Origin: a bacterium
Lineage (GTDB): Bacteria > Verrucomicrobiota > Verrucomicrobiia > Limisphaerales > JAJXZI01
DNA length: 35,426 bases
Reading direction: 5' to 3'
Assembly (NCBI GenBank): GCA_021780115.1
Contig: JAJXZI010000039.1
Location: forward strand, 1 to 35,426
Shown here: positions 1 through 31,557 of the stretch, in pieces
Numbering within the stretch: position 1 is the first letter of the stretch
Layout of the letters: every line of letters starts with the position of its first letter
Notes under the pieces: generated by a model
Seen by the model: only the letters and a program-made list of their open reading frames with translations
What the model was told of the DNA's origin: nothing
Databases searched by the model: none
Made by a program: the position numbers and the translations under genes

Positions 1-3000
1 CCGCTCGAGCGCCTGGCCGGCACCAACCGCCTGCGCCTGGCCATCGGGCTGCCGGTGCGCGACCCGGCCGGTCTGACCAATCTCCTGCGGCAGCTCTACG
101 ACCCGGCCAGCCCCCGGTACCGCCAGTATCTCACGCCGGCGCAGTTCACCGAACGGTTTGGCCCCACCGAACAGGACTATCAAGCGGTCACGGCCTTTGC
201 CCGGACCAACGGTTTCACGGTGACGGCCACCCATCCCAACCGCCTGCTGCTCGACGTCGAAGCGCCGGTGGCCGACATCGAGAGGACTTTTCACCTGAAC
301 CTGCGCGTCTATCGGCACCCGAAGGAGGCCCGGACGTTCTACGCGCCGGATGCGGAGCCGTCCCTGGATTTGGCCGTGCCGGTCCTGGACATCAGCGGCT
401 TGGATAATTACTCGCTCCCGCAGCCGGCGGGCCTCGGCGGCACCGGCTCCTGGACCAACGGAGCCTTCATGGCCAGAGATCTCCGGGCCGCCTATGTTCC
501 AGGTGTATCGCTCGACGGCACTGGGCAGAGCGTCGGGCTTTTAGAGTTCGACGGTTATTACGCGAGTGACATCACTGCCTACGAAAGCCTGGCTAGGCTG
601 CAGAACGCCCCATTGGTAAATGTGCCGATTGATGGCGTCACCCGGAATCCCGGCTACAGTGGCATTTCTAACGCTGTGGTCGAAGTGTCTTTGGACATCG
701 AGATGGCGGTTGCTATGGCGCCCGGCTTGTCCCAGGTGATCGTCTATGAAGCGCCGCCGCCCGTTCACGTTGGTAACGACTGGTCGTCGTATAACACGCA
801 TTGGCTGCAGATTCTCAACCGCATGGCTAGCGACAACTCGGCCAGACAACTGAGTAGCTCTTGGGTAAACCCTCATATGAGCTCAGCGGACAAGCAACAG
901 GCCGAGCAGTCTCTCTACCAGATGGCTGCGCAAGGACAGTCGTTTTTTCAGGCGTCCGGCGATTACGATGCTTATCCGGCGGCTGGCCCATTCCCGGTGG
1001 ACAGCCCGAATGTTACCAGCGTCGGCGGGACATCGTTGACTACAACTACCCCAGGCGGAGTCTATTATTCGGAAACGGTCTGGAATTGGGGCCTCCAGCC
1101 CCAGCCTGACGGGAGTTACAAACCCGTCGGCAGCAGTGGAGGAATCAGCACTAATTACGCGATTCCCTGGTGGCAACAATTCACGAGCATGGCCCAAAAC
1201 GGAGGGTCCAAGTTTTTCAGGAACATTCCCGACGTAGCGATGGCTGCGGATAACATTCTCTATGTCGCAAACGGTCAACCGTCCCCCACTGGCGGCACCA
1301 GTGCCGCGGCACCGTTGTGGGCGGGCTTTACGGCCCTGGTCAATCAGCAAGCAGGCGCGAATGGCAAACCATCCGTCGGCTTTCTCAACCCGGCTCTCTA
1401 CGCGATCGGCAATGGATCGAACTACACCTCCTGCTTCCATGACATCACAACAGGGAGCAATTCTGTTTCCGGCCCTTTCCTTCCTGATCAGTTCGTTGCC
1501 GTTCCGGGCTACGACCTCTGCACCGGCTGGGGCACTCCGAACGGCCAGAATTTGATCAACGCTCTTGCGGGGACCAGCAGCGTGACGAACGTCACAACCA
1601 ACGTCATCAGCACCGTCGTCTCCAACTCCTCGCTCACCAACCTGTACTCTGCCTTGCTGGCCGGAGGCCGCATCACGTTCAGCGGCGCGTTGACCTTCAA
1701 TCTCACCAATGCAATCCCGATCGTCCGGGACACCATCCTTGACGCCGGCCCCACAAACGGACCTTCCGTGGTCTTCAACGGCGGCAACGCCACGCGGCTG
1801 TTCACGGTGTGCAGCAATGTCACGCTCCAGCTTATCAACGTCACCTTGACCGGAGGTTCCAGCGCCACCGGCGGCGCCGTCCTCAACCAAGGCGGCACCT
1901 TCATCGCCAACGGCTGCCTTTTCACTGGCAACCAGAGCGTCACCGGCGGGGCCATCCTCAACCAGGCCGGAACCGTCATCGCCACGAACTGCCTCTTTAG
2001 CGGCAACGCCGCGGTAGGCCCGTCGGGCGCCGCCGGAGCGCCGGGATACACCGATCCGTATGTGGGCGGCGATGGCGGCCCGGGCCTGCCCGGCACGAGC
2101 GCCGCCGGAGGAGCCATCTACACTCTCGCCCCAGCGGAGTTCTATTTGTGTCGCTTCGCAGGGGACACCGCGACGGGCGGCAACGGCGGCCCAGGGGGCG
2201 TGGGCGGCGTGGGCGGCTCGATGGGCGGCAACGGCGGCGACGGCGGCGCGGCCGCCGGAGCGTTTGGTGGTGCGATTTTTAGCACCAACCGACTTGTGCT
2301 TTCGGAATGCACCTTTGAGGCCGATACCGTGGCCGGCGGCAATGGGGGTCAGGGCGGCCTGGCCGCTCAGGGGACGAACACGACCACCACCTTCTTCCGC
2401 GCGGCGGGTTTGAGTCGCGCCGGCGGCAGCGCCTGCGGCGGCGCAATCTATTGTTCGGGTCAGCTCCTGGTATCGGGCTGCACCTTTGCCACCAACAGCA
2501 CCCTGGGAGGTGTCGGGGCCAGCGCGTTTCCCGACGCCGGTGGCACGGGCCTTCCCGGCCTAAGCGGCGGGGCCTCATTGGGTGGCGCGATTTACAGCAG
2601 CGGCACGAACGCCTTGGTCAACTGCACCTTCTTCGCCAACAGCGTCCAGGGGGGAGCGGGCGGAAACGGCGCTGCCGGCAACCCGTATGCGGGGGGTGAC
2701 GGTGGCGCCGGCGGTGCGGCCTTTGGCGGCGCGCTGGAGGTGGCTGGAGGCCGAACCGGCGCCACCAACTGCACGTTTGCCAATGGCTCGACCGTGGGAG
2801 GCGTCGGCGGGTTGGGCGGAGCTTCGGGAACGGGGGTCCTTTATCCAGCGCCCGGCGACCCGGGTACCATGAGCGCCGGGGGCGGCAACCTCGCTGCGGC
2901 ACCGGGCGGCACGCTGACGCTCGAGAATTGCATCGTGGCCAACAGCCCCAGCGGCGGCAATGCGTTCGGCAGCCTTGTCGATGCCGGCCACAACTTGAGC

Positions 3001-4311
3001 TCGGACGCGACGTGCCACTTCACCGCGTCCGGCAGCATGAACAACACGGACCCGTTGCTTGGCCCGCTGGGCGATTACGGCGGCCCGACCCAGACCATTC
3101 CGCTCCTGGTCACCACCGACAGTCAAGGCTGTCAGGGGTGCAACGGTCTCCTGGTGCAAAGCCCGGCCATCGACGCCGGTGTGGCCATTTTGGGCTTGGC
3201 AACCGACCAGCGCGGTGTGCCGCGGCCACAAGGGATGGCGGTGGACATGGGAGCCTTCGAGTGCGTGGCGGTGACTGGCCATGTGCAGCAGTATGACGGA
3301 ACCGCATTCGTCAACGCGACCATCTGGCTGCTTTCCACCTTTTCCCCGCCGCTAAAGGCGGTGACCGATGCCCAAGGACGCTATCAAATCGTCGCCCCGC
3401 CGGATGTGGTGCTGAACCTCGGCGTGTATCGGGTGGAGCCGGAGGCCGGGAACGTAATCTTCTCACCGGCCTATTCCTTAGTGAACCTTCCATCCCCCGT
3501 GAACAGCAGTGTCAATCTTGATTTCGCTGAGGTCCTGGCCATGGGCCAAGTGCGGCAGGGCGACGGGTCGCCGTTCACCAACATCACGGTTACGCTGGTC
3601 TCCACTTCTTCGCCGCCATTGAGGGTGGTGACCGATGCTCAGGGAAACTACCAATTCACTGTCCCACCCGGAGTGATCTTGGTTCCTGGCGCGTATCAGG
3701 TGGCGGCGGAGGCCGACGGAGCGGTCTTTTCGCCTCCGTCCGCCGCGCTGCAACTCGGAAGTCCCAGTACGAAGACGAATCTGGTTTTCACCGAGTGCGT
3801 GGCCGTCGGCCAGGTGCGGCAGTGCGACGGGACCCCGTTCACAAACGTGACGGTCTCGCTCCTCACGACGTTTTCACCGTTTTCACCGCGGGTGACGACA
3901 GCGACGGATGCGCTGGGCCACTACCAACTTGCCGTGCCGCCCGGTATGACGCTGACCCCCGGCGTGTATCAGGTGGTGCCGGCGGCTGGGGGCGCGGTCT
4001 TTTTGCCGTCTTCTGTCCAGGTGCAGGTCGGACCTTCGATGCCGAGCCGCACGCATCTGGACTTCGCCAGCCCGCTTCTGGGCGGTTTTACGGCGCAGAC
4101 GCAGCGCGGGTTCCACGTCACCGGTTGGGCCGCGCCGGGGCAGGTCTTCCGCGTCGAAGTCGCTCCGGCCTTGCCCGCGCCGTTCTGGCAACCGCTGGGC
4201 ACGGTGACCAATGGCGCGGACGGCCTGCTCGAATTCACGGACCCCACCGCGTGGAACTATCCCGCCCGGTTCTACCGGTTGGTGCCCCAAAATCCCCCGC
4301 CCGGCCCATGA
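1..4311 (+). CDS. S53 (sedolisin/kumamolisin) peptidase with beta-helix and repeat C-terminus, 5' partial
   Basis: Secreted serine-carboxyl peptidase fused to a long surface-type tail. The frame is open to the first base of the window, so the true start and any signal peptide lie outside it; the GTG at 55 is internal to the prodomain. Numbering from base 1: pro-kumamolisin activation domain about 1-140, S53 catalytic domain about 160-525. The catalytic set is visible: E228 and D232 in EVSLD, oxyanion D321 in SGDYD, and nucleophile S434 in GGTSAAAP. A Ca-site-like end (FHDIT, GYDLCTGWGTPNG) follows. Residues about 560-1000 are Gly-rich GGAI/NCTF repeats of a right-handed beta-helix. A choice-of-anchor-Q-like segment follows (DPLLGPLGDYGGPTQT, SPAIDAG, GAFE). 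Three ~89-residue repeats come next, and the end is FYRLVPQ. S53 enzymes normally cleave proteins at acidic pH outside the cell. The intact catalytic residues suggest activity; the tail probably anchors it or binds a surface. No PEP-CTERM or LPXTG is seen. Confidence 0.93.
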   Translation, partial: PLERLAGTNRLRLAIGLPVRDPAGLTNLLRQLYDPASPRYRQYLTPAQFTERFGPTEQDYQAVTAFARTNGFTVTATHPNRLLLDVEAPVADIERTFHLNLRVYRHPKEARTFYAPDAEPSLDLAVPVLDISGLDNYSLPQPAGLGGTGSWTNGAFMARDLRAAYVPGVSLDGTGQSVGLLEFDGYYASDITAYESLARLQNAPLVNVPIDGVTRNPGYSGISNAVVEVSLDIEMAVAMAPGLSQVIVYEAPPPVHVGNDWSSYNTHWLQILNRMASDNSARQLSSSWVNPHMSSADKQQAEQSLYQMAAQGQSFFQASGDYDAYPAAGPFPVDSPNVTSVGGTSLTTTTPGGVYYSETVWNWGLQPQPDGSYKPVGSSGGISTNYAIPWWQQFTSMAQNGGSKFFRNIPDVAMAADNILYVANGQPSPTGGTSAAAPLWAGFTALVNQQAGANGKPSVGFLNPALYAIGNGSNYTSCFHDITTGSNSVSGPFLPDQFVAVPGYDLCTGWGTPNGQNLINALAGTSSVTNVTTNVISTVVSNSSLTNLYSALLAGGRITFSGALTFNLTNAIPIVRDTILDAGPTNGPSVVFNGGNATRLFTVCSNVTLQLINVTLTGGSSATGGAVLNQGGTFIANGCLFTGNQSVTGGAILNQAGTVIATNCLFSGNAAVGPSGAAGAPGYTDPYVGGDGGPGLPGTSAAGGAIYTLAPAEFYLCRFAGDTATGGNGGPGGVGGVGGSMGGNGGDGGAAAGAFGGAIFSTNRLVLSECTFEADTVAGGNGGQGGLAAQGTNTTTTFFRAAGLSRAGGSACGGAIYCSGQLLVSGCTFATNSTLGGVGASAFPDAGGTGLPGLSGGASLGGAIYSSGTNALVNCTFFANSVQGGAGGNGAAGNPYAGGDGGAGGAAFGGALEVAGGRTGATNCTFANGSTVGGVGGLGGASGTGVLYPAPGDPGTMSAGGGNLAAAPGGTLTLENCIVANSPSGGNAFGSLVDAGHNLSSDATCHFTASGSMNNTDPLLGPLGDYGGPTQTIPLLVTTDSQGCQGCNGLLVQSPAIDAGVAILGLATDQRGVPRPQGMAVDMGAFECVAVTGHVQQYDGTAFVNATIWLLSTFSPPLKAVTDAQGRYQIVAPPDVVLNLGVYRVEPEAGNVIFSPAYSLVNLPSPVNSSVNLDFAEVLAMGQVRQGDGSPFTNITVTLVSTSSPPLRVVTDAQGNYQFTVPPGVILVPGAYQVAAEADGAVFSPPSAALQLGSPSTKTNLVFTECVAVGQVRQCDGTPFTNVTVSLLTTFSPFSPRVTTATDALGHYQLAVPPGMTLTPGVYQVVPAAGGAVFLPSSVQVQVGPSMPSRTHLDFASPLLGGFTAQTQRGFHVTGWAAPGQVFRVEVAPALPAPFWQPLGTVTNGADGLLEFTDPTAWNYPARFYRLVPQNPPPGP
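3271..4074 (+). repeat. Three tandem ~265-bp repeats (carboxypeptidase-regulatory-like domains)
   Basis: Three consecutive in-frame units begin near 3271, 3541 and 3805 within the S53 fusion gene. Each encodes G-x-V-[RQ]-Q-x-DG...F-x-N, then a serine/proline turn, V-T-D-A-x-G-x-Y-Q, and a closing L-x-F-[AT]-E-like strand. The pattern fits carboxypeptidase regulatory-like/SpaA-like beta-sandwich modules. The units have diverged in sequence but hold their length, so this is an old duplication kept under protein-level selection. Confidence 0.8.
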
Positions 4312-5715: not shown

Positions 5716-5882
5716 CGAACCTGCCTGGCCCGCTTCCATCCCTGTGATCCCGCCGCCCGCCCAACGAACGCGCTGCCCGGCATGAAGACCGGGAGCGGAC
5801 GACGTGTCGCTCGGGCCGTTCGGCGAAGCGGCCCCGGCTTTGGCCTTGGTATCTTTTCCCCGATCTCCCGCACCTCGAACTC

Positions 5883-8800
5883 ATGAAAATCCCGACTCCA
5901 AAACACTCGGTTACGGCCGTGGCCCTTGGCCTCCTGTTCAGTCTGGCCTCACTCGAACGCGCGCCCGGTCAAACGGCCTGCTGCCTGGTGTTCCCACCGG
6001 CGCCGGACAACGGCGCCATCTTTGGTCTCACCACGCCGTGGGCCTTGACGGGGGATTATACCGTGGCCAGCAACCCGGCCTATTTCTCCATCCAGGTTAC
6101 AACCGGGGACGTGGTGGTGCCCGCGGGGACGTACCGGGCTTGGTGCGTCGATGCGGCCACGCCCATTGATCCGGGGCCGACGACCTACACCAACCTGCTG
6201 TACTCGACTTGTGACACCAACCTGAACAGCGACCTGCCCGCCGGGCGCCCGGCGACGGTGTATGTCAGTCCCGACGTGTGGCACCAGGTCAACTACCTCC
6301 TCAATCACAAAACGGTGTCGGGCACCAACGCCTATTTCTGGGACGTGCAACTGGCCATCTGGGGCTTGGTCGGCGGGCCGGTGCCCTCCGTGTACCTGGA
6401 TCCCAGCCAAGGCTACCCGCCCGCGGACACCAACGTGGAGAACCTCCTCGTGGCGGACGCGCAAGCCAACGCCGCCGCCTGGCAGCTTCCGTGCGGGGGC
6501 ACCATCGGCGTCGTGGCCGTGGTGCAGGATTGGTCCAGTGCCGTGCAACTCTTGATGCTTGAAGTGCCCTGCTCGTGCAACACCCCGACCATCGTGCCGA
6601 CCGGCGGCACGGTGGGGCAGACCTTCATCTCGCCGCCCACGGTCCTTGGCGGCACCAACTACACCATCACCTCCGGCAGTCTGCCGCCGGGATTGGTCCT
6701 GAACCCGACCACCGGCGACATCACCGGCACGCCGACGACGCCCGGCACCTACACCTTCACCGAGACCGTGACGGATTCCACCGGGACGACGACGACGCTG
6801 CCGCCCACGACCATCATCATCGCTCCGCCCCTGGCGGGGGTGTTTGTGTCCGAGGAAATCGCCTGCCTGCAGCCGACGAATAATTGCGCCCCCTTCGCCA
6901 AGCTCGCCGCCGGCATCAAGGGACTCGAAGACCCGGGCTTTTGCTACCAAATCACCGTGACCAACAGCGGCGTCTCGGGCCTGACCAATTTGTCGGTGGT
7001 GGACTCCCATCTTGGTGATGTCACCACCAATCTGTTTGCCGCGCCCACCGTCGTCCTGCCGCCGGGTGGCGTCGCCACCGCCTATTTCAAGGCGGCGTGG
7101 GCCACCAACACGACCAACACCGTGACCGTTTCCGGCCAGTCCGTCACCAACGGCGCCACGGTGACGGCGAGCGACGGCACCGTGGCCTTGGTGGACTTGG
7201 CCAGCCTGACCTGCAACGTGATGGTGACCGCGCCCTGCGACCTGGATGGCGTGCCGAACAACAACCACGTGCTGTTGCCCGGCTGCGGCGCCTCGTGCAG
7301 CGTGCAGTTCGACGTCCAGGTCTGCAACACCGGCCAGGCGGACCTGACGGCGGTGGTCCTCAGCTCGCCGGCCTTGGCCGCGCTGGGGTGCGGCCTGCCC
7401 GCGCCGTTCACCCTGCCCGTCGGATCGTGCAGCAATTTCCAGTGCTCCGCCACGCTGACGTGTCCCGGTCAGGCGCTCCCGGTCAACGTCACCGTTGCCG
7501 CCAAGGCCAGCGCCGGCGCCGGCGCCTGCGCCTACGACCTGAGCAGCACGAACATCGTGGACGTCGCGGCGGCCGGCTCCGGTTTGGTGGAATGCGCCGC
7601 CGGCTCGGCCAACGTGTGCGGCGCCGTGCTGCGCGATTGCGCCGCCAACGGCAACCTCGCCGGCGCGCCAGGTCTGGCCGGGGTCGTCGTGACGTTGAAG
7701 AACACCAGCGGCTACGCGGTCGCGGCCACCGTCACCGACCCCAACGGCGCCTGGTGTTTCAACCAGGAACCGGATGGCGTTTATACCGTCGTGGTCACGC
7801 CGCCGGCCAACTACCTGCAGACGGTCGATCCCGACGCCACGCTGGACAACCAGACCGTCGTGACCGTGACCGGCTGCGCAAACCTCACCGGCGTGAACTT
7901 CGGCTACACCGGCTCCGCGCCGGCGGTGACGCTGCTCAAGACCGGCCCGGCCGCGGCGAACTGTGGCGACACCATCACCTACACCTTCGCCGTGACCAAC
8001 ACGGGCAACACCTGCTTCAGCGGCCTGCAGGTGATCGACCCGATGTTTGGGGGCGAGATCTTCAACGCAGGCGCGGTGGTTCCCGGCCAGGGGTTCGTGT
8101 TCACCACGAACTACGTGGTGAAGGCGACCGACCCGACCAATCTGGTCAACACCGCCACGGCCGTCGGCCACCCGCCCACCGGTAACGCCGTCACCGCCCC
8201 GGCTTCCTGGACGGTCCAGGTCACGCCGTGCGTGCCCTTGACGTTGGCGTGTGCGACCGGCGCCGGCGTGTCCGGCACGCCGTTCAGCGCGGCTCCGCAG
8301 GCCAACGGCGGCGTGCCGCCGTATCTGTTCGCGATGGTCGCGGGCAGCCTGCCGCCAGGGCTGACGCTGGATCCCGCCACGGGTGCGATCACCGGCACGC
8401 CGACCAGCGCCGGCACGTTTGGCTTCGCGCTACAGGTCACCGACGCGAAAGGGGCGACCGCGGTGGCCGGATGCACGCAGGGTTGCTTCGTCACCAACGC
8501 GTGGAATTTCTCGACGCTCGCAGGCGTGTTGGGCACTTCGCAGGCGTACACCACCAACGGTCTCACGATCACGGCCTATGGCTACGCCAAGAGCGGCCAA
8601 GCCCTGGCGCTCTACGGCAAGACCCAGGGAGGCGATGAGAACGGTGTCGGCATCGCCTGCGCCTCAGACTACGAAATCGGCACCTCCAATTTTATCCAAT
8701 TGGACCTGACGCAAGTGATTGCCAGCGGCGCCCAGAATGCCCTGCTGGTGATCGGCAGCGTGCAACCCGGCGAAGGCTACAACATCTACGGCTCGACCAC

Positions 8801-10820
8801 CCAAGGCGTTCTGGGGACCCTCTTGGGCAGCAACGGCACGCTCGACTTTACGCCCTTCCCGGTCCCGGGCTATCCGGCGTATCCCTTCGTCAGCGTGAGC
8901 GCTTCCGCGGCGAACGTGTTGCTGGACGCCCTCAGCGTCGTCGTCCCCTCGCCCACATGTGTCATCACCATTGCCGCGCCCGCGCCGCCGCCGCCGCCGT
9001 GCGTCGGGGTGGACAAGGAGATTGCCTGCGCGCAACCGAACAACGCCTGCGGCCCGCTGGGCAAGTCGGCCGCCGGCTTCAAGGGCGTGGAGGCCCCCGG
9101 CTTCTGTTACCAGATCACGGTGACCAACTGCGGCCCGGTTGCGCTGACCAATCTGACGGTGGTGGACGATCTGCTCGGGGACGTGACCACGAACTTCTTC
9201 CCGACGCCCGCCACCGCCCTGCCGCCGGGCGGGACGGCCACGGCCAATTTCCGTTTGGCCTCGGAGGAGGACACCACCAGCACCGTGACGGTGTCCGCCC
9301 AGTCGGCCGCGGACGGAACGCCCGCGTCCGCCACGGACCACGTCCTGGCGCAGGTGACGGCCGCCACCATCGCGTGCCAGACGTTTGTGACCGCTCCGGA
9401 CGACGTGGACGGACACATCAACAGCAACGTGGTCATGCTGCCGAACGACGGCGCTCCGCACCTGGTGACGTTCAGCCTCACGGTGACGAATCCGGGCGCG
9501 GCGGATTTGGCGAGTGTCACCATCGTGGCCCCGACGCTGACCAACCTCAGCGGCGCGCTGCCCGGGCCGTTCGCCCTGCCGGCCGGCACGGCCCTGAACT
9601 TCACGCTGGGTTCGACGGCGCTGACGTGTCCGAACTTCCCGGTCAACAATCCCGTAAGCGTGGTGGGATTGATCGACACCTCCAAGAGTGGCGGCTGCGC
9701 GAATGACGTGGATGGGAATGCCATTGTCGTGCAAAGCCAATGCTCCGCCCAGGTCGGCTGCACCAACGTCAGCCACGGCTGCACGTTCACCATCGGCTAC
9801 TACAAGAACCACCCCAGCGCCATCGGCCCGTTGCCCATTGACCTCGGCACGAACGGCGGCGTGGACACGCTCATCGTGACCAATCAGCCGATGGGCGCGG
9901 ACGTGGAGAGCCAGAAGGTGTTCGGCGCCCCGTCCAACGGCATCACCAAGCTCTATGCCCAATTGCTGGCGGCCAAGATCAGCATTCTGCACGGGGCGGA
10001 TTCCAGCGCCGTCGCGACCACGATCACGCAAGCCGACGCCTTCCTCTCGGCCTACAACTACCTGGACTGGTCCAACCTGAGCGGCGCGCAGCAGCAGTCG
10101 GTCCTGCAATGGCAAACGACCCTGGATTCCTACAACAACGGCTATATTGGTCCCGGGCATTGCAGCGCACCCTGTCAGCCCCGGCAGCAGTCGATCGAGT
10201 CCCAGTTCAACTCCCAGATGCCCCGGGGTTCCTCCTGCGTCTGGTTTAACGCTCATGTCTCCGCCCAACCCGGACAGGAGGCGACGATCTACTGCAAGAA
10301 CGCCTCGGTGAAAATCGTGGGCCGGAGTGGCCAGAAATACACCTACCCGGTGCCGGATGGGACCATTGTGTTCAGTGCGAGCGCCACCAACGCCACGACC
10401 ACCTTCGACGGCACGCAATGGACAACCACGGTGCCGACGGCGGGCGACGACGAGATCTTCATGGCGGGCTTGAGTGTTCCCATGCTGAGTGACTTCGCGC
10501 GGGCCGGTTCGGTGACCTGGCAATGTGATTTCACGTCGGACATGGCCGGCCTGAACCTGAACTGGCAGTGGAGCGCCTCCGCCTACGGCACGGACCTGAG
10601 CCAGTACGGGTCGCTGGGCGTCAAAGCCAGCCACAACAACGCCTGTTCCACCGGCGCGGGCTTCAAGTCCTCCGATCACGCTGGCACGCCCGGGACGGTC
10701 AAAGGCTTCCTCGCTCCCGGCTGCCGCGGTGGCGGCGGATCCAACTACACCGGCTCCTGGAGCGGCAAGGATTCCCTGCAGCTCTGCAATCAGAGCAACG
10801 ACGCCTCGGACGGGGACTAA
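5883..10820 (+). CDS. Giant cysteine-rich modular surface protein (thioester-like, He_PIG, SdrD_B, DUF11 domains)
   Basis: 1645 residues with an N-terminal signal peptide (about 1-30, ending RAPGQ). Module order: 40-230, a domain with YRAWCVDA (C88) and DVQLAIW (Q156), like Cys-Gln thioester adhesin domains; 235-315, He_PIG (LPPGL...TGDITGTPTTPG); 316-565, a repeat unit opening EIACLQPTNNC; 575-680, SdrD_B-like (GVVVTLKN, DPNGAWCF); 680-785, DUF11 (LLKTGP, YTFAVTNTGNTC); 790-875, a second He_PIG; 875-1025, an unrecognised jelly-roll-like segment; 1040-1290, a second copy of the 316 unit after a short proline run; 1298-1425, a TIGYYKNHPS domain seen in other large surface proteins; then a unique C-terminus rich in Cys, Gly and Ser. 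No LPXTG, PEP-CTERM or T9SS signal is recognised, so the anchoring route is unknown. Likely an extracellular adhesin or stalk. The start lacks a Shine-Dalgarno but gives a good signal peptide. Confidence 0.88.
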   Translation: MKIPTPKHSVTAVALGLLFSLASLERAPGQTACCLVFPPAPDNGAIFGLTTPWALTGDYTVASNPAYFSIQVTTGDVVVPAGTYRAWCVDAATPIDPGPTTYTNLLYSTCDTNLNSDLPAGRPATVYVSPDVWHQVNYLLNHKTVSGTNAYFWDVQLAIWGLVGGPVPSVYLDPSQGYPPADTNVENLLVADAQANAAAWQLPCGGTIGVVAVVQDWSSAVQLLMLEVPCSCNTPTIVPTGGTVGQTFISPPTVLGGTNYTITSGSLPPGLVLNPTTGDITGTPTTPGTYTFTETVTDSTGTTTTLPPTTIIIAPPLAGVFVSEEIACLQPTNNCAPFAKLAAGIKGLEDPGFCYQITVTNSGVSGLTNLSVVDSHLGDVTTNLFAAPTVVLPPGGVATAYFKAAWATNTTNTVTVSGQSVTNGATVTASDGTVALVDLASLTCNVMVTAPCDLDGVPNNNHVLLPGCGASCSVQFDVQVCNTGQADLTAVVLSSPALAALGCGLPAPFTLPVGSCSNFQCSATLTCPGQALPVNVTVAAKASAGAGACAYDLSSTNIVDVAAAGSGLVECAAGSANVCGAVLRDCAANGNLAGAPGLAGVVVTLKNTSGYAVAATVTDPNGAWCFNQEPDGVYTVVVTPPANYLQTVDPDATLDNQTVVTVTGCANLTGVNFGYTGSAPAVTLLKTGPAAANCGDTITYTFAVTNTGNTCFSGLQVIDPMFGGEIFNAGAVVPGQGFVFTTNYVVKATDPTNLVNTATAVGHPPTGNAVTAPASWTVQVTPCVPLTLACATGAGVSGTPFSAAPQANGGVPPYLFAMVAGSLPPGLTLDPATGAITGTPTSAGTFGFALQVTDAKGATAVAGCTQGCFVTNAWNFSTLAGVLGTSQAYTTNGLTITAYGYAKSGQALALYGKTQGGDENGVGIACASDYEIGTSNFIQLDLTQVIASGAQNALLVIGSVQPGEGYNIYGSTTQGVLGTLLGSNGTLDFTPFPVPGYPAYPFVSVSASAANVLLDALSVVVPSPTCVITIAAPAPPPPPCVGVDKEIACAQPNNACGPLGKSAAGFKGVEAPGFCYQITVTNCGPVALTNLTVVDDLLGDVTTNFFPTPATALPPGGTATANFRLASEEDTTSTVTVSAQSAADGTPASATDHVLAQVTAATIACQTFVTAPDDVDGHINSNVVMLPNDGAPHLVTFSLTVTNPGAADLASVTIVAPTLTNLSGALPGPFALPAGTALNFTLGSTALTCPNFPVNNPVSVVGLIDTSKSGGCANDVDGNAIVVQSQCSAQVGCTNVSHGCTFTIGYYKNHPSAIGPLPIDLGTNGGVDTLIVTNQPMGADVESQKVFGAPSNGITKLYAQLLAAKISILHGADSSAVATTITQADAFLSAYNYLDWSNLSGAQQQSVLQWQTTLDSYNNGYIGPGHCSAPCQPRQQSIESQFNSQMPRGSSCVWFNAHVSAQPGQEATIYCKNASVKIVGRSGQKYTYPVPDGTIVFSASATNATTTFDGTQWTTTVPTAGDDEIFMAGLSVPMLSDFARAGSVTWQCDFTSDMAGLNLNWQWSASAYGTDLSQYGSLGVKASHNNACSTGAGFKSSDHAGTPGTVKGFLAPGCRGGGGSNYTGSWSGKDSLQLCNQSNDASDGD
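6831..7575 (+). repeat. Internal duplication, copy A
   Basis: Encodes about 250 residues opening EIACLQPTNNC and containing GFCYQITVTN, GDVTTN, LPPGG and VTAPCDLDG. It aligns along its length with the segment at 9000-9747 of the same gene. It is a pair of DUF11-like conserved-repeat domains. Confidence 0.8.
9000..9747 (+). repeat. Internal duplication, copy B
   Basis: Second copy of the 6831-7575 unit: EIACAQPNNAC, GFCYQITVTN, GDVTTN, LPPGG, VTAPDDVDG. Several cysteines of copy A are lost here, for example the CDLDG cysteine is replaced, so the two copies probably differ in disulphide pattern. Confidence 0.8.
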
Positions 10821-26030: not shown

Positions 26031-27413
26031 ATGCCCAAAGCAACCGACCAAGCCCTATTCGAGAGCATCCGCACTCATGCGTTCCGCAGCCTGCCGTTCG
26101 ACCGGCTGCAGTCCACGAACCTCCACCTTGACACACGCATCTACCGGGCGGGGCAGCCGATCGGTCCCCGACGCCAGAAGATCGTGGCCGACCGGGCCAG
26201 CGTCCTGGTCTTTGCCGACGACGCCCCGCAGGCGAACTTCTCGCACGCGTGCCGCTACCTCCTGTACGACGCCAAGACCGGCGGCTTCCACCGGGAAGTG
26301 CCGGCGCAGTTCCCGCCCTTCGACAAGGCCCGGCCGGAAACCTTGCAAGCGTTTCACGAACCCGTGCAGTTCACGGCCCGCCCGAACCTGTTTCAGGTGC
26401 GCCCCTGGTGGCGATGCCCGGTGTTCGTCCCGGACGGCAGCCGGTATGCCGTTCTCTACGCGGGCATGACCAACAAGCGGCACTTGAACGACATGGAATT
26501 CCTTTACCGGACCTTGATCGACCTCTACGCGTTTGATCCGAACAACATCTACGCGCTCAGCTACGATGGGACGCTCAACACGCAGGACGGCGTCCAGACG
26601 AAGTGGCCGGGCGACAACACGGCTTACCGGATCAAAATCACCGGGCAGGGGACGCAGTCCGCCCTGGTCGCCGCGATCGACGACTTGAAGAAGCGAATCA
26701 AGGCGCCCGATCTGCTCCTGATTCACACGAACAATCACGGCGGGTATGACGGCACGCCGGGCACGGCCAATCTATGCACCTACCCGAGCTGGACCGGCTA
26801 CTACGCGAGCGATTTCGCCAACAAACTGGCCGAGTTGCCCAAGTTCCGGAAGCTGATCGTGATGATGGAGCAGTGCCATGCGGGTGGATTCAACGGCCCC
26901 ATCATCGCCCACAGCCCCGCCGATGAAACGAGCGTGGCCTCCGCCGCGATCGAGACGCAAAGCTCTTACGTGACCGCAGACGGAAACTGGGACCCATTCG
27001 CCCGGGACTGGATTGCGGCGCAGGCCGGTCACAATCCCTTCGGCGGCGCACTCGCGTTCAACGCCGATACCGACGGCGATGGAAAGATCGAAGCCGAGGA
27101 GGCCTACGTTTATGCGAACGCCGTGAAAGACCCGCGCGACACGCCGAACTACAGCGAAAGTTCGGAGGCGGGAGGCGATATCGCCCTTGGGCAGGAGTAT
27201 GTGATCTGGTGGTGGTGGTGTCCCATTCTCCACGAGGTTCTCTGGCCGCAGTACGCCAAGCTGCCCCCGCCCGAATACTATGCCCGGCTGCGCAAAGTGC
27301 AGCCGGAGCTCGCGAGACTCACGGCGGAGCTGGACCAGACCTCCAACAAATTGCGCGAGGAATTCTCCGCCAAGGTCAAGTCGGTGATCGCCTCAACCTT
27401 CGACCAAGGATAG
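26031..27413 (+). CDS. Clan CD (caspase/legumain-like) cysteine protease with novel N-terminal domain and EF-hand-like loop
   Basis: 460 residues; start supported by AAGGAG 8 nt upstream, one of the strongest ribosome sites in the window. No signal peptide or membrane segment: cytoplasmic. Residues about 1-110 form a domain of unknown function with ASVLVFADD, the motif A-N-F-S-H-A-C-R-Y-L-L (68-78) and QFPPF (93-97). The peptidase domain is about 130-345: strand YAVLYAG, then the catalytic His H236 in IHTNNHGG and catalytic Cys C282 in MMEQCHAGGF, the order and spacing of C13/C14-type enzymes. The loop D346-D348-D350-G-K-I-E-A-E-E357 matches a calcium-binding EF-hand. A charged, probably coiled-coil tail covers about 415-455. 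It is tail-to-tail with a gene encoding a free copy of the N-terminal domain. Substrate and trigger are unknown; calcium control is inferred from the loop. Confidence 0.85.
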   Translation: MPKATDQALFESIRTHAFRSLPFDRLQSTNLHLDTRIYRAGQPIGPRRQKIVADRASVLVFADDAPQANFSHACRYLLYDAKTGGFHREVPAQFPPFDKARPETLQAFHEPVQFTARPNLFQVRPWWRCPVFVPDGSRYAVLYAGMTNKRHLNDMEFLYRTLIDLYAFDPNNIYALSYDGTLNTQDGVQTKWPGDNTAYRIKITGQGTQSALVAAIDDLKKRIKAPDLLLIHTNNHGGYDGTPGTANLCTYPSWTGYYASDFANKLAELPKFRKLIVMMEQCHAGGFNGPIIAHSPADETSVASAAIETQSSYVTADGNWDPFARDWIAAQAGHNPFGGALAFNADTDGDGKIEAEEAYVYANAVKDPRDTPNYSESSEAGGDIALGQEYVIWWWWCPILHEVLWPQYAKLPPPEYYARLRKVQPELARLTAELDQTSNKLREEFSAKVKSVIASTFDQG

Positions 27414-27434
27414 GGCGAAGCAAGCCGGTTGGCG

Positions 27435-27466
27435 CCGCCTCCCCGGCGCTGCGGCGGGGGAGGCGG
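27435..27466. terminator. Bidirectional terminator-like hairpin between convergent genes
   Basis: A 10-bp perfect stem (CCGCCTCCCC / GGGGAGGCGG) with a 12-nt loop sits midway between the stops of the caspase-like gene and its domain homologue. There is no T-run on either side, so it may slow polymerase rather than terminate alone. Confidence 0.4.
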
Positions 27467-27509
27467 TGCAATGGGCGTGGGATTCCCAACGGGGCGGGCC
27501 AATCTGCCG

Positions 27510-27860
27510 TCAAATCGCGCGGAGCACCCCGTCCGGGACACCCGGCGCTTTGAACAGCAGCCGCCAGCGGAGAGTCCCGCCCGGTCGGAATGGCGGAAGC
27601 TGAGCCTCGAAGGACCGCGCCTCGCCGGTTTCGCAATGGACCAGCAGGTAGCGGCAGGAGTGGCTCCAGTTCGCGGCGGGGTCGCGGTCCACGAAGACCA
27701 GCCAGGCCTCCCACGGCACCGCAATCTGCACCTTGGGGAAGGCGAGTTGTGTGCCGGCGGCGACGGGCCCGTCCACGGCATAAGCGGCGCCTCCCGCGAC
27801 TTCCGAAGCCGTGAGATGGCCCTTTACCAGCGAAGCCAGTTCTTCGGATGAGCGAGGCAT
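27510..27860 (-). CDS. Stand-alone homologue of the caspase-like protein's N-terminal domain
   Basis: 116 residues with no protease domain. The segment LVFVDRDPAANWSHSCRYLL (54-73) aligns with residues 58-78 of the protease at 26031. Further on, QLPPF aligns with QFPPF at the same spacing, with a shared T-G turn between them. The conserved N-x-S-H-x-C-R-Y-L-L block is therefore the signature of a domain that exists both fused and alone. No signal peptide, so cytoplasmic. The gene is convergent with the protease, 96 bp apart. No Shine-Dalgarno is seen upstream of ATG 27860. It could be an inhibitor, adaptor or substrate-presenting partner of the protease; a simple duplicated remnant is the alternative, but the frame is intact and the block well kept. 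Confidence 0.72.
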   Translation of the reverse strand: MPRSSEELASLVKGHLTASEVAGGAAYAVDGPVAAGTQLAFPKVQIAVPWEAWLVFVDRDPAANWSHSCRYLLVHCETGEARSFEAQLPPFRPGGTLRWRLLFKAPGVPDGVLRAI

Positions 27861-28624: not shown

Positions 28625-29584
28625 TCAGTTTTCGGTGACGGGCGTCCAGGTCTTGTCCGGGTCGTAGGCGGTCATCCGGGAGGCCACCGCAGAAGTCTTC
28701 GGCCCCAGATTTTTCTGATAGACCTTGCCTTGCTGGTTGACGAGGAAGGTCATCACTCCGGTGTTGCCCCAGGCCGCCGGCCAGGCCACCAGCGCGAAGC
28801 CCGCGATCATGTGCCCGTTGATGATGTATTTATATCTGCCGCCGGCCGCGTGGTTGCCCTGGCGGGTCAGGATTTCGAAGTAATAACCATGGTAAGGCGA
28901 CTGTTCGTCCGCCAGGATTCGGGTCTTTTGCCGATAGCCTTCGCCCCGGGCCAGCGCGACCAGCGGGCCTAACGGGCTGAGTTCATCGCCGGGGCGCAGG
29001 GACCAGTAAAGGCCGTCGTGCGTGCCGGGAGTGCTCCGCAGATGCTGGGCGTATTCGAGCACTTCGTCCCCGTTGCGATCCGCGCTGGCATAGTCGCGCT
29101 GGGCCTGCACGTAGGCGCGGCAGACCTGGATGGCACCCAGTTCATTGGCGCCAATGCGCCGGTTGAGGACCTCCTCCTTGCCCGCCGCGGTATCGAAAAA
29201 CCATTGCCCCTCCTGTTTCACCAGCGGAATGGGAAAGGGCCAGCCGTCGGCGCCCAGGTGCAGTTCCTGCCGGGAGTCGGATTCCGTCACCAGGTTGACC
29301 TTCTCCTGGAGGCGGCGCACGAACAGCTCCCGCTCCGCCGCGGCCTCCACGACATCCGCCGAAACCAGGTTCTGGGCGCCCGGACCGAAGATCGCGCGCA
29401 GGGCATTGGTATCCTTGGCTTCAACCGCCGCTTGGAGCGTGTCCACCGCGGCCTGGGGGGATCTGAATCGCTCCTCCCCCGCCGCCCGCAAGCGCCCGGG
29501 CGGCACCAGCAGGAGCAGCAGGAAAAGGAGTCCAGGCACTCGCTCGGGGGAGCGGCAAACGGAAAACGAAGGGCGGAGTTTCAT
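28625..29584 (-). CDS. DUF2950 family protein
   Basis: 319 residues with a signal peptide (hydrophobic core LLFLLLLLVPP, cleavage near RAAG-E, about 36). The mature protein has the DUF2950 pattern: RSPQAAVDTLQAAVEAKDT, a W-F-F-D-T-A-A-G-K-E-E block, LNRRIGANEL followed by the C-x-A-Y-V-x-A-Q-R-D-Y-A block, and near the end GYYFEILTRQG, NTGVMTFLVN and the closing DPDKTWTPV. The function of DUF2950 is not known; it is a periplasmic or exported protein commonly encoded beside DUF3300, as here. It starts 41 bp after the DUF3300 stop, so the two form an operon. Confidence 0.92.
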   Translation of the reverse strand: MKLRPSFSVCRSPERVPGLLFLLLLLVPPGRLRAAGEERFRSPQAAVDTLQAAVEAKDTNALRAIFGPGAQNLVSADVVEAAAERELFVRRLQEKVNLVTESDSRQELHLGADGWPFPIPLVKQEGQWFFDTAAGKEEVLNRRIGANELGAIQVCRAYVQAQRDYASADRNGDEVLEYAQHLRSTPGTHDGLYWSLRPGDELSPLGPLVALARGEGYRQKTRILADEQSPYHGYYFEILTRQGNHAAGGRYKYIINGHMIAGFALVAWPAAWGNTGVMTFLVNQQGKVYQKNLGPKTSAVASRMTAYDPDKTWTPVTEN

Positions 29585-29625
29585 GGGGCAGGGTTCGGTG
29601 GCGAAGTCATCGTGGGACCGACGGA

Positions 29626-30723
29626 TCAGCGTCTTCCGGCGGCGGGCGGGCGACCGGGAGCCTCCGAACGGGCGGGAGGCGACTCAGGTTGGGGAGCAAC
29701 CTCCTGCCGGCTTTGCTGGCCGCGGGTGCTGAACTGCCGCGTCTCGTGGGAACTCTGGACGCCAATCAGCGCGCCGTTCGCCGGCCGCCAGCGGGGTGCG
29801 GGCGCCGCCGGCGCGACCATCCCCGGTTGCGGTTGGCGGCCAATCGACGCCGGAGTTCCGCCTCGCTCCCCCGACCGGGGTTGGCCCCCGATTACCGTGA
29901 CCGTGCTCGGGCCCTGGCGGGAATCCCAGCCGCGGTCCAGGCCCCGATTGGCCAGGCCCGCGCCGTTGCGGGGCTGCCAGACGGCGGCGCGGTTCATCTC
30001 CATCCGCGGAGGTCCGCCGGGGCGGCGAAACCACCAATCGGCCGGGCGCGGCTGGTCATGGCGCCAGACGATGAGGTGGTGATTGTGCCAATCAAAATCG
30101 TGGTTGAGCCAGGCGCCCACCGCCAGGCCCAACCCGAAGGAGATGAACGGAACACCATAGGGTTGCTGGAAATAGACCAGGGCCGGTTGATACACCGGCA
30201 CGTACATCACCTGCGGATCGGCGGGGAGGATTTCGATGGTTCCGTCGCCGGCAACGACGTTCTCCTGCGGGGTGGATTGCAAATTGCCCAGGGCCTGGGC
30301 CTGGCCCCGGAGCCGTTGAACGGAATCCATCACGTCCTGCTGCTGATACAGGAACGCCTGTCCCAGGGCCGTGGTCCAGGCCAGGTTATCGTCCAGCCAT
30401 TTGAGGACGGCCGGGTAGCGGGCCAACGCCTGGACGCTGGGATCCCAAGGTTGCTGGTCAATCAGGTTCGGGTCGCCGCCGCCGTTCACGTAGCGATCCG
30501 CCAGGACGATTTCCGCAGGCAAGGTCGCGGCCGGGAGGATTTGCGCGATCAACGGGTCGGGGTAGAGCGCAATGGGTCCCAGCATCTGGTCCAGTTCGGC
30601 GCTGGAGCGCAGGGGCACTTCCGGCGCCGGAGGCGGAGCGGACATTTGGGCCCGCCCGCTCATCCCGATGCTGAGGACGACCAGTAAAGCGGCCGTGAAA
30701 ATGGGTTTTGGTCTCATGGGCAT
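29626..30723 (-). CDS. DUF3300 family protein
   Basis: 365 residues from ATG 30723 (a second ATG two codons later at 30717 is equally possible). The longer upstream frame is rejected because it would place the signal peptide internally. Signal peptide to about 25 (SGRAQ). The DUF3300 core is clear: ELDQMLGPIALYPDPLIAQ, PAATLPAEIVLADR, WDPSVQALARYPAVLKWL, then DPQVMYVPVYQPALVY. Residues after about 200 are Trp/Arg/Pro/Gln-rich low complexity, common in this family. Role unknown; exported. First gene of the DUF3300-DUF2950 unit. Confidence 0.92.
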   Translation of the reverse strand: MPMRPKPIFTAALLVVLSIGMSGRAQMSAPPPAPEVPLRSSAELDQMLGPIALYPDPLIAQILPAATLPAEIVLADRYVNGGGDPNLIDQQPWDPSVQALARYPAVLKWLDDNLAWTTALGQAFLYQQQDVMDSVQRLRGQAQALGNLQSTPQENVVAGDGTIEILPADPQVMYVPVYQPALVYFQQPYGVPFISFGLGLAVGAWLNHDFDWHNHHLIVWRHDQPRPADWWFRRPGGPPRMEMNRAAVWQPRNGAGLANRGLDRGWDSRQGPSTVTVIGGQPRSGERGGTPASIGRQPQPGMVAPAAPAPRWRPANGALIGVQSSHETRQFSTRGQQSRQEVAPQPESPPARSEAPGRPPAAGRR

Positions 30724-31106
30724 GGCCCAGTTATTCTGGTCCGCTTCTGCCCGATGGGAAGCGAATTTATTCTTCCCGCTCGCCCGGGTTCCTGACGCCA
30801 GTGCCCACGACTCAGCCGTTCGACACATTCCGTCTTCCCGGCGGCCAGACCGACCCGCATCACCACGCACGCCCTCCCCGGAACCGACTGAACACACGGG
30901 GTGCCATTCGTTTTGATGAGCCTTCCCCGGCTGGGGATTCAGTGCGGGAGGCCTACCCGTTGCCAAGCATCTGGGTGCGTCGTGGGCAACCAGTGCTTCG
31001 TCACTGCTTTCAACAACTTCGCCGCGCTCGGCCATGCCTCCATCAACCCGAACCTCGGCAACACCGCCGTCGAGGGAATGGGTGGCACGCCGCCACAGTT
31101 GGCTAC

Positions 31107-31300
31107 GCTGGTCCGTCAAAGTGAAGTCCGGAATTTCTTCGTAGGCGATCGTGACGGTCCGGCCGCGGGCTCGAGCGAGCGGATTTGGCCGGTGACGTCC
31201 ACCGCGCGCACATGGGGGCCGACGACTGCTGGCCGCCCCCGGACGCAAACGCCAGCAGCGCGACGCTGATGAAAATCCCGGCAATTCTGTTCTCATACTC
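31107..31300 (-). pseudogene. Relic of a signal-peptide/CusF-like copper-binding/SCO-type protein
   Basis: Three overlapping minus-strand frames must be joined to read it. First NRIAGIFISVALLAFASG, a secretion signal (about 31300-31220). Then HVRAVDVTGQIRSLEPAAG (about 31219-31160). Then GRTVTIAYEEIPDFTLTDQ (31167-31110). The pattern V-x-G-x-[IV]-x-S-L-x-P-A-A-x-T-V-x-I-x-x-E-x-I-P is the CusF-like segment that precedes the SCO1/SenC fold in many exported copper chaperones. It runs straight into PDFTLTDQ, the usual start of the SCO fold, so the intervening ~60 residues and the rest of the SCO domain are gone. Two frameshifts plus deletion: non-functional. Confidence 0.55.
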
Positions 31301-31557
31301 ACAACATCCGCGTCGGAGCACGCACGTCCGGCGGGCGGGTTCGCCGGGCCGTCGTTCATGTTTCACGCCGACATCTTGGGGAAGCTGCGACCGGCGAGTT
31401 TGACCACCATCAAGTCTGTCGGTGTTTTGTCTCCGCCGACCGGGCCGCGCGCGGATCCACGCTGGTTGCCTCCCACTGCGTTCCCGGCGGACCTTTTTTG
31501 GGGTGCCGCCGCGGCCATCGCCCCGCGGCGGACTTGAGTTTTGGGGGTTACATTTGC

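Follow-up and report, generated by a model that had tools for sequence, protein, structure and literature searches.

A legumain-like cysteine protease encoded beside a free-standing copy of its own N-terminal domain: a proposed trans inhibitor or regulator found in bacteria and on an archaeal plasmid

Small inhibitor genes located beside the gene of the protease are known from SpeB-Spi (C10) and staphopain-staphostatin (C47), and Spi is an analogue of the SpeB propeptide (PMC2873492). Among clan CD enzymes, legumain (C13) binds asparagine in an S1 pocket formed by Arg44, His45, Ser216 and Asp231; the enzyme is kept in check from its C-terminal side by a domain, whereas the peptide at the N-terminus plays no part in activation (PMC4357240). 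Independent legumain inhibitors, the cystatins and the mycocypins, have a loop that exposes a conserved P1-Asn (PMC9579014), and the N-terminal prodomain of gingipain R (C25) inserts a P1-Arg (PMC4357240). Additionally, systems with effector-associated domains or EACC1 link a small domain or protein to a protease of the caspase superfamily through genes that lie side by side (PMC7159879). Prokaryotic legumain-like proteases appear to have been little studied.

The window, that is, the whole stretch of 35,426 nucleotides analyzed, contains one such protease gene paired with a small gene. Both open reading frames were found where the initial annotation had placed them, with the lengths of 460 and 116 aa it had given; the two genes are convergent, and their stop codons lie 96 nt apart (Table 1). 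An AGGAG ribosome-binding site was observed just upstream of the protease gene, and a consensus scan of the locus found no promoters or terminators. A hydropathy scan detected no signal-peptide-like segment in the window protease. Elsewhere in the window, adjacent genes for DUF2950 and DUF3300 proteins (28625-31359) lie upstream of the small gene and on its strand. A very long ORF (55-4311) starts inside a pro-kumamolisin activation domain, with no kumamolisin catalytic domain match reported, and the product of another (5883-10820), 1645 aa long, contains repeats of the Ig-like and DUF7507 types.

Table 1. Positions of the two genes and their functional parts in the window.
Feature	Coordinates	Strand	Basis
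Legumain-like (C13-type, clan CD) cysteine protease, 460 aa	26031..27413	+	Pfam, PDB profile, Foldseek
Prodomain-like N-terminal domain of the protease, about residues 1-112, homologue of the small protein	26031..26366	+	
PQANFSH loop in the N-terminal domain of the protease, Asn69 invariant	26226..26246	+	
R150-H151, counterparts of legumain S1-pocket Arg44-His45	26478..26483	+	Plant legumain alignment and family table
Catalytic His236 (NNHGG)	26736..26738	+	Invariant among relatives
Catalytic Cys282 (EQCHAGGF)	26874..26876	+	Invariant among relatives
S312 to D321, probable equivalents of Ser216 and Asp231 in the S1 pocket of legumain	26964..26993	+	
EF-hand-like loop D346-E357 of the protease	27066..27101	+	
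Free-standing domain copy, 116 aa; proposed trans inhibitor or regulator	27510..27860	-	Kept at 13 other loci
PAANWSH loop in the small protein, with the invariant Asn64 (Met included in the numbering)	27660..27680	-	

The larger protein had been described as "caspase/legumain-like". It belongs to clan CD and is legumain-like (C13), and the "caspase" part of the description should be dropped. Legumain was the best match to its predicted fold (Foldseek E 3e-11, TMt up to 0.70; AlphaFold pLDDT 81), and PDB profile searches with the protease returned plant legumains and metacaspase-4. In Pfam, Peptidase_C13 (PF01650) scored 21.5 on the window protease against a gathering cut-off of 22.8; the same profile matched all 13 members of the protease alignment (A2) at E <= 0.1, the best at 1.2e-7, and several distant relatives exceeded the cut-off. 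The catalytic motifs that had been recognized, NNHGG and EQCHAGGF, are indeed present, and H236 and C282 were found in 25/25 aligned relatives, in H-G and E-x-C-x-[AS]-G contexts. At the C-terminus, where legumain has its LSAM prodomain, AlphaFold predicted helices with low confidence.

By alignment, the equivalents of the legumain S1-pocket residues in the protease are R150, H151, S312 and D321. The last two, which we take to be the counterparts of Ser216 and Asp231, were assigned by motif position from the known legumain sequence. In the family table, R150 and D321 were kept in 24 of the 25 relatives, S312 was Ser or Thr in all of them, and the H151 position was Tyr in the secreted members. 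Since these equivalents are kept, a preference for P1-Asn is predicted for the protease.

The presence of an EF-hand-like loop was also borne out: D346-T-D-G-D-G-K-I-E-A-E-E357 is a canonical 12-residue DxDxDGxIxxxE loop, which makes calcium binding by the protease plausible. The loop was kept in most protease relatives, including the secreted ones without a separate partner, and was lost in L021, which is a paired member. The loop therefore belongs to the whole protease family and does not tie calcium to the pair, so that the "calcium-responsive two-protein system" suggested by the initial annotation found no support.

The small protein is homologous to the N-terminal domain of the protease over most of its length, and the similarity is far above chance. 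The own-genome search gave E 1.7e-7 for this match and revealed no further copies of the domain in the 5.15 Mb draft genome. The Smith-Waterman score of the two sequences was 104, compared with a mean of 26 (sd 4.4, maximum 48) in 2000 shuffles, and only 29 was reached against the catalytic part of the protease. Profile-profile comparison of the two domains gave a probability of 99.4% (E 1e-21) over 83 columns. AlphaFold modelled the small protein as a compact alpha+beta structure (pLDDT 92, pTM 0.86); the row of the plasmid record was left out of the structure-prediction input. One or two helices followed by strands occur in the same order in the models of the small protein and of the protease N-domain, and the homology therefore covers the whole domain, beyond the short block first noticed. 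As the initial annotation had stated, the domain matches no family that can be named: no match was found in Pfam, NCBIfam, PADLOC, PDB sequences, PDB folds or BFVD folds, and the best PDB fold match had E 0.16 and a TM of about 0.23. The layout had raised the suspicion of a cystatin-, PepSY- or staphostatin-like identity, for which the fold search gave no support.

The occurrence of the pair in other genomes was then surveyed. A single scan of 84,980 prokaryote genomes yielded 11 protease relatives from several phyla, a Methanomethylovorans hollandica plasmid contributed one more (L022), and domain-profile surveys added three loci (G163/L056, G340/L057 and G1236/L075) with the pair adjacent in each. 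The two genes were adjacent at 14/14 loci with a clear free-standing copy, so that the expected co-occurrence was observed, in Verrucomicrobia, Acidobacteria, Desulfobacterota, Betaproteobacteria and the archaeal Methanomethylovorans plasmid. Gene order and strand varied: on the same strand, the small gene is upstream of the protease in L011, L012, L013, L014, L015 and L022 and downstream in L017, L018, L019 and L021, and the window pair is convergent. The domain in any form is rare, being found in 2 to 6 genomes per sample of 80 to about 300. In L016 and L020 the protease has no neighbouring small gene, which indicates that the latter is not obligatory where a cis copy exists; the protease frame of L020 (7965-9167) is disrupted near its C-terminal end, either really or by an assembly error. 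One further locus, L062, carries separate domain and protease ORFs overlapping at GTGA and was left uncounted as a possible frameshift, and a match in G060 (E 0.003) was taken as chance.

Some of these loci deserve particular mention. In L075 the sole copy of the domain is a separate gene, directly upstream of a protease lacking the domain; the TAA of the small gene is followed almost immediately by the protease ATG, and this protease starts at its catalytic domain and has its own ribosome-binding site. In L057 both partners start with signal-peptide-like segments (hydropathy 2.49 and 2.32), which indicates that the pair changes compartment together, the paired group being mostly cytosolic. 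On the archaeal plasmid the small gene (L022:7525-7899, NC_019972.1) is missing from the annotation shown, and the pair is 68% (protease) and 58% (small protein) identical to the Desulfobacterota pair L056. From these identities, the two genes probably travelled together, which points to an exchange between domains of life.

Other features of these loci were also recorded. The proteases of L057 (901-2574) and L021 (7977-9656) carry two similar C-terminal repeats of roughly 70-80 aa, recognized by eye, and those of L057 have no Pfam match. A four-gene cassette, about 70% conserved between Acidobacteria and Geobacteraceae, was found in L011 (444-5606), L013 (4526-9383) and L015 (4177-9080); in it the pair comes after the genes of an alpha/beta-hydrolase-like protein of roughly 905 aa with PETase/chlorophyllase matches and of a protein of 112 aa. 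When a third conserved partner of the pair was sought, this cassette was common to these three loci only, and no relatives of the hydrolase were found in the other 12 genomes checked, the window genome included.

In a tree of 32 domains, cis and free-standing, 13 of the 14 small proteins formed one branch, with the protease N-domains on the other side. The exception was the exported small protein of L057, which grouped with the group of its own protease and is perhaps a second origin, although the long branches make this unsure. Moreover, the distances among small proteins tracked those among the catalytic cores (r = 0.82; Mantel 0 of 5000). The separate branch and the matched divergence argue against recent independent duplications in each genome, and judging from the tree the small-protein branch is ancient.

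The most conserved part of the domain is a PxANWxH loop between two predicted strands, and its Asn was invariant in 25/25 aligned cis, trans and phage copies. Thirty domain-protease sets were compared (L010 and L078 were read from the sequences): every one of the 24 sets whose S1 pocket could be recognised had the loop Asn, as did two of the six lacking such a pocket (Fisher 0.0005, relatedness ignored). The four sets without it carry Gln, Arg, Ser or Asp, the Arg set lying beside a caspase (C14)-type domain, and L078 keeps the Asn despite its lost pocket. Asp57, His66 and an aromatic residue at 64 (numbered without the Met) are as conserved as the loop Asn, and this conservation would fit a role in structure or in ligand binding better than that of a plain bait.

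The earlier proposal that the small protein is a partner of the protease has gained ground, as the protein is a copy of the protease N-domain and the two occur together elsewhere; by inference, it acts most plausibly as an inhibitor or as a trans-acting prodomain. We judge the chances somewhat better than even that the small protein, in the manner of a prodomain, inhibits or regulates the protease next to it in trans, because of the linkage at 14/14 loci, the matched divergence, the trans-only domain of L075, the joint export in L057 and the match between loop Asn and S1 pocket. The domain would bind its protease, and this binding would be inhibitory. The cis copy would hold the zymogen and be cleaved or displaced upon activation; the trans copy would then hold or re-silence the mature enzyme, as Spi does SpeB. 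A more tentative proposal, to which we give rather less than an even chance, is that the loop Asn enters the S1 pocket much as a substrate would, like the P1-Asn of cystatins and mycocypins or the P1-Arg of the gingipain prodomain.

The domain might instead be a recruitment module, the free copy nucleating, bridging or capping protease assemblies and so activating or scaffolding the enzyme in a death-fold-like manner. Systems with effector-associated domains, in which effector and neighbour share a small non-enzymatic domain, offer a precedent, and alpha/beta-hydrolases, like that of the three cassettes, accompany caspases in some systems (PMC7159879). However, adjacent copies are not mutual closest relatives here, as those of effector-associated domains are; the neighbourhoods share no recurrent NTPase or other core component, and the L075 protease has no copy to dimerise with; we regard this activating role as unlikely, if deserving of attention. 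Nor did the programmed death or abortive infection role mentioned in the initial annotation find support, since PADLOC gave no match for the pair or the cassette partners and no recurrent defence neighbours were seen among the loci compared.

Many propeptides are intramolecular chaperones, and the domain could likewise help the protease to fold, both in cis and in trans, inhibition being a lesser effect or none at all. The L075 arrangement, with the domain in trans only and immediately upstream of the protease gene, would suit this role. Yet 13 loci keep an extra copy although their proteases already have the cis domain, and a strict Asn in step with the S1 pocket is unneeded for a folding aid, which makes a chaperone improbable. 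Dedicated substrates encoded beside proteases are also known, and if the small protein were cleaved after the loop Asn, the fragment or the cleavage itself would be the output; in most copies the loop reads x-A-N, like the standard legumain substrate Ala-Ala-Asn (PMC9579014). Nevertheless, the enzyme would then have a version of its own domain as substrate, the cis copy has the same site, and conservation spans the whole domain beyond the cleavage site, so there is little to recommend this role. Finally, a tandem duplication can leave homologous neighbours that are functionally unconnected, and in L057, whose branches are long, a second duplication may have happened independently. Retention across phyla and on an archaeal plasmid, the ancient separate branch with its matched divergence and the trans-only domain of L075 make mere coincidence scarcely credible.

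The domain was also detected outside the pair. Large proteins, most of them secreted, carry it ahead of a C13-like or remoter clan CD protease in Verrucomicrobia, Planctomycetota, Desulfobacterota, Acidobacteriota and the phylum of G154; it therefore behaves as an N-terminal domain of this protease type. Such arrangements before C13-/C14-like proteases, some with sorting tails, were observed in L009 (1793-8656), L010 (5365-9540), L055, L058-L061, L063-L065 and L076-L078. A possible second, degenerate tandem copy in L058/L059, which would be the cis equivalent of the pair, scored weakly (isolated 108- and 123-aa targets, 7-16 bits) and was set aside from the main evidence.

Free-standing copies were also present on four IMG/VR contigs, two of which are identical around the gene (L071:5878-6198, L072:5857-6156, and L073 and L074 around 5770-6096), near ParB-like, replication and methyltransferase genes. 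No C13 protease was detected on these four contigs, a search of IMG/VR for the protease found none, a PHROGs search with the phage copies only gave no match, and no host or defence link was found for them. A scan of INPHARED phages for protease and domain gave no credible match, the weak Pectobacterium matches (E 0.7) overlying a spanin gene. If the domain is an inhibitor, the phage copies could be anti-protease proteins. It is a long shot that the domain represents a new class of asparaginyl-protease inhibitors without known fold relatives, acting as cis zymogen domain and trans inhibitor among bacteria and archaea, which phages have taken up to counter proteases; if true, these legumain-like enzymes would act against phages.

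No description of this pair was found in the literature, which was searched mainly outside subscription journals, and the pair can be compared with each of the systems above. The protease resembles legumain in fold, catalytic dyad and S1-pocket residues, and differs in that the conserved domain is N-terminal. The loop Asn is like the P1-Asn loop of cystatins and mycocypins, whose folds are unmatched by the small domain. Gingipain R shares the clan, and its prodomain is likened to the domain described here; that prodomain is larger and acts in cis, and no free-standing neighbour copy of it has been described (PMC4357240). Compared with effector-associated domains, in which adjacent copies are mutual closest relatives and one copy is fused to an NTPase or core component, 13 of the 14 small proteins here group apart and each copy either stands alone or is joined to a clan CD protease. 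Neither the transmembrane helix of EACC1 nor its caspase fused to variable effectors is found here (the maximum N-terminal hydropathy of the window small protein is 1.05).

By analogy, the closest counterpart in logic is SpeB-Spi, where the neighbouring gene likewise encodes a relative of the N-terminal domain of the protease itself; as there, the small protein may be a built-in brake on the enzyme. SpeB-Spi and staphopain-staphostatin are secreted clan CA systems, whereas the present pair is clan CD and mostly cytosolic in the paired group, with no similarity detected between its small domain and Spi, staphostatin or any solved fold. In place of a C10 protease with a Spi-type sequence there is a C13-like protease with a small protein lacking a Pfam match, and the pair is spread across bacteria and an archaeon. 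A dedicated, co-inherited partner made from the front domain of the protease opens the control of such enzymes to experiment and provides a new domain to try on those of the legumain type; an arms-race role can be tested with the phage copies, and the short list of prodomain-derived inhibitors would gain a clan CD member.
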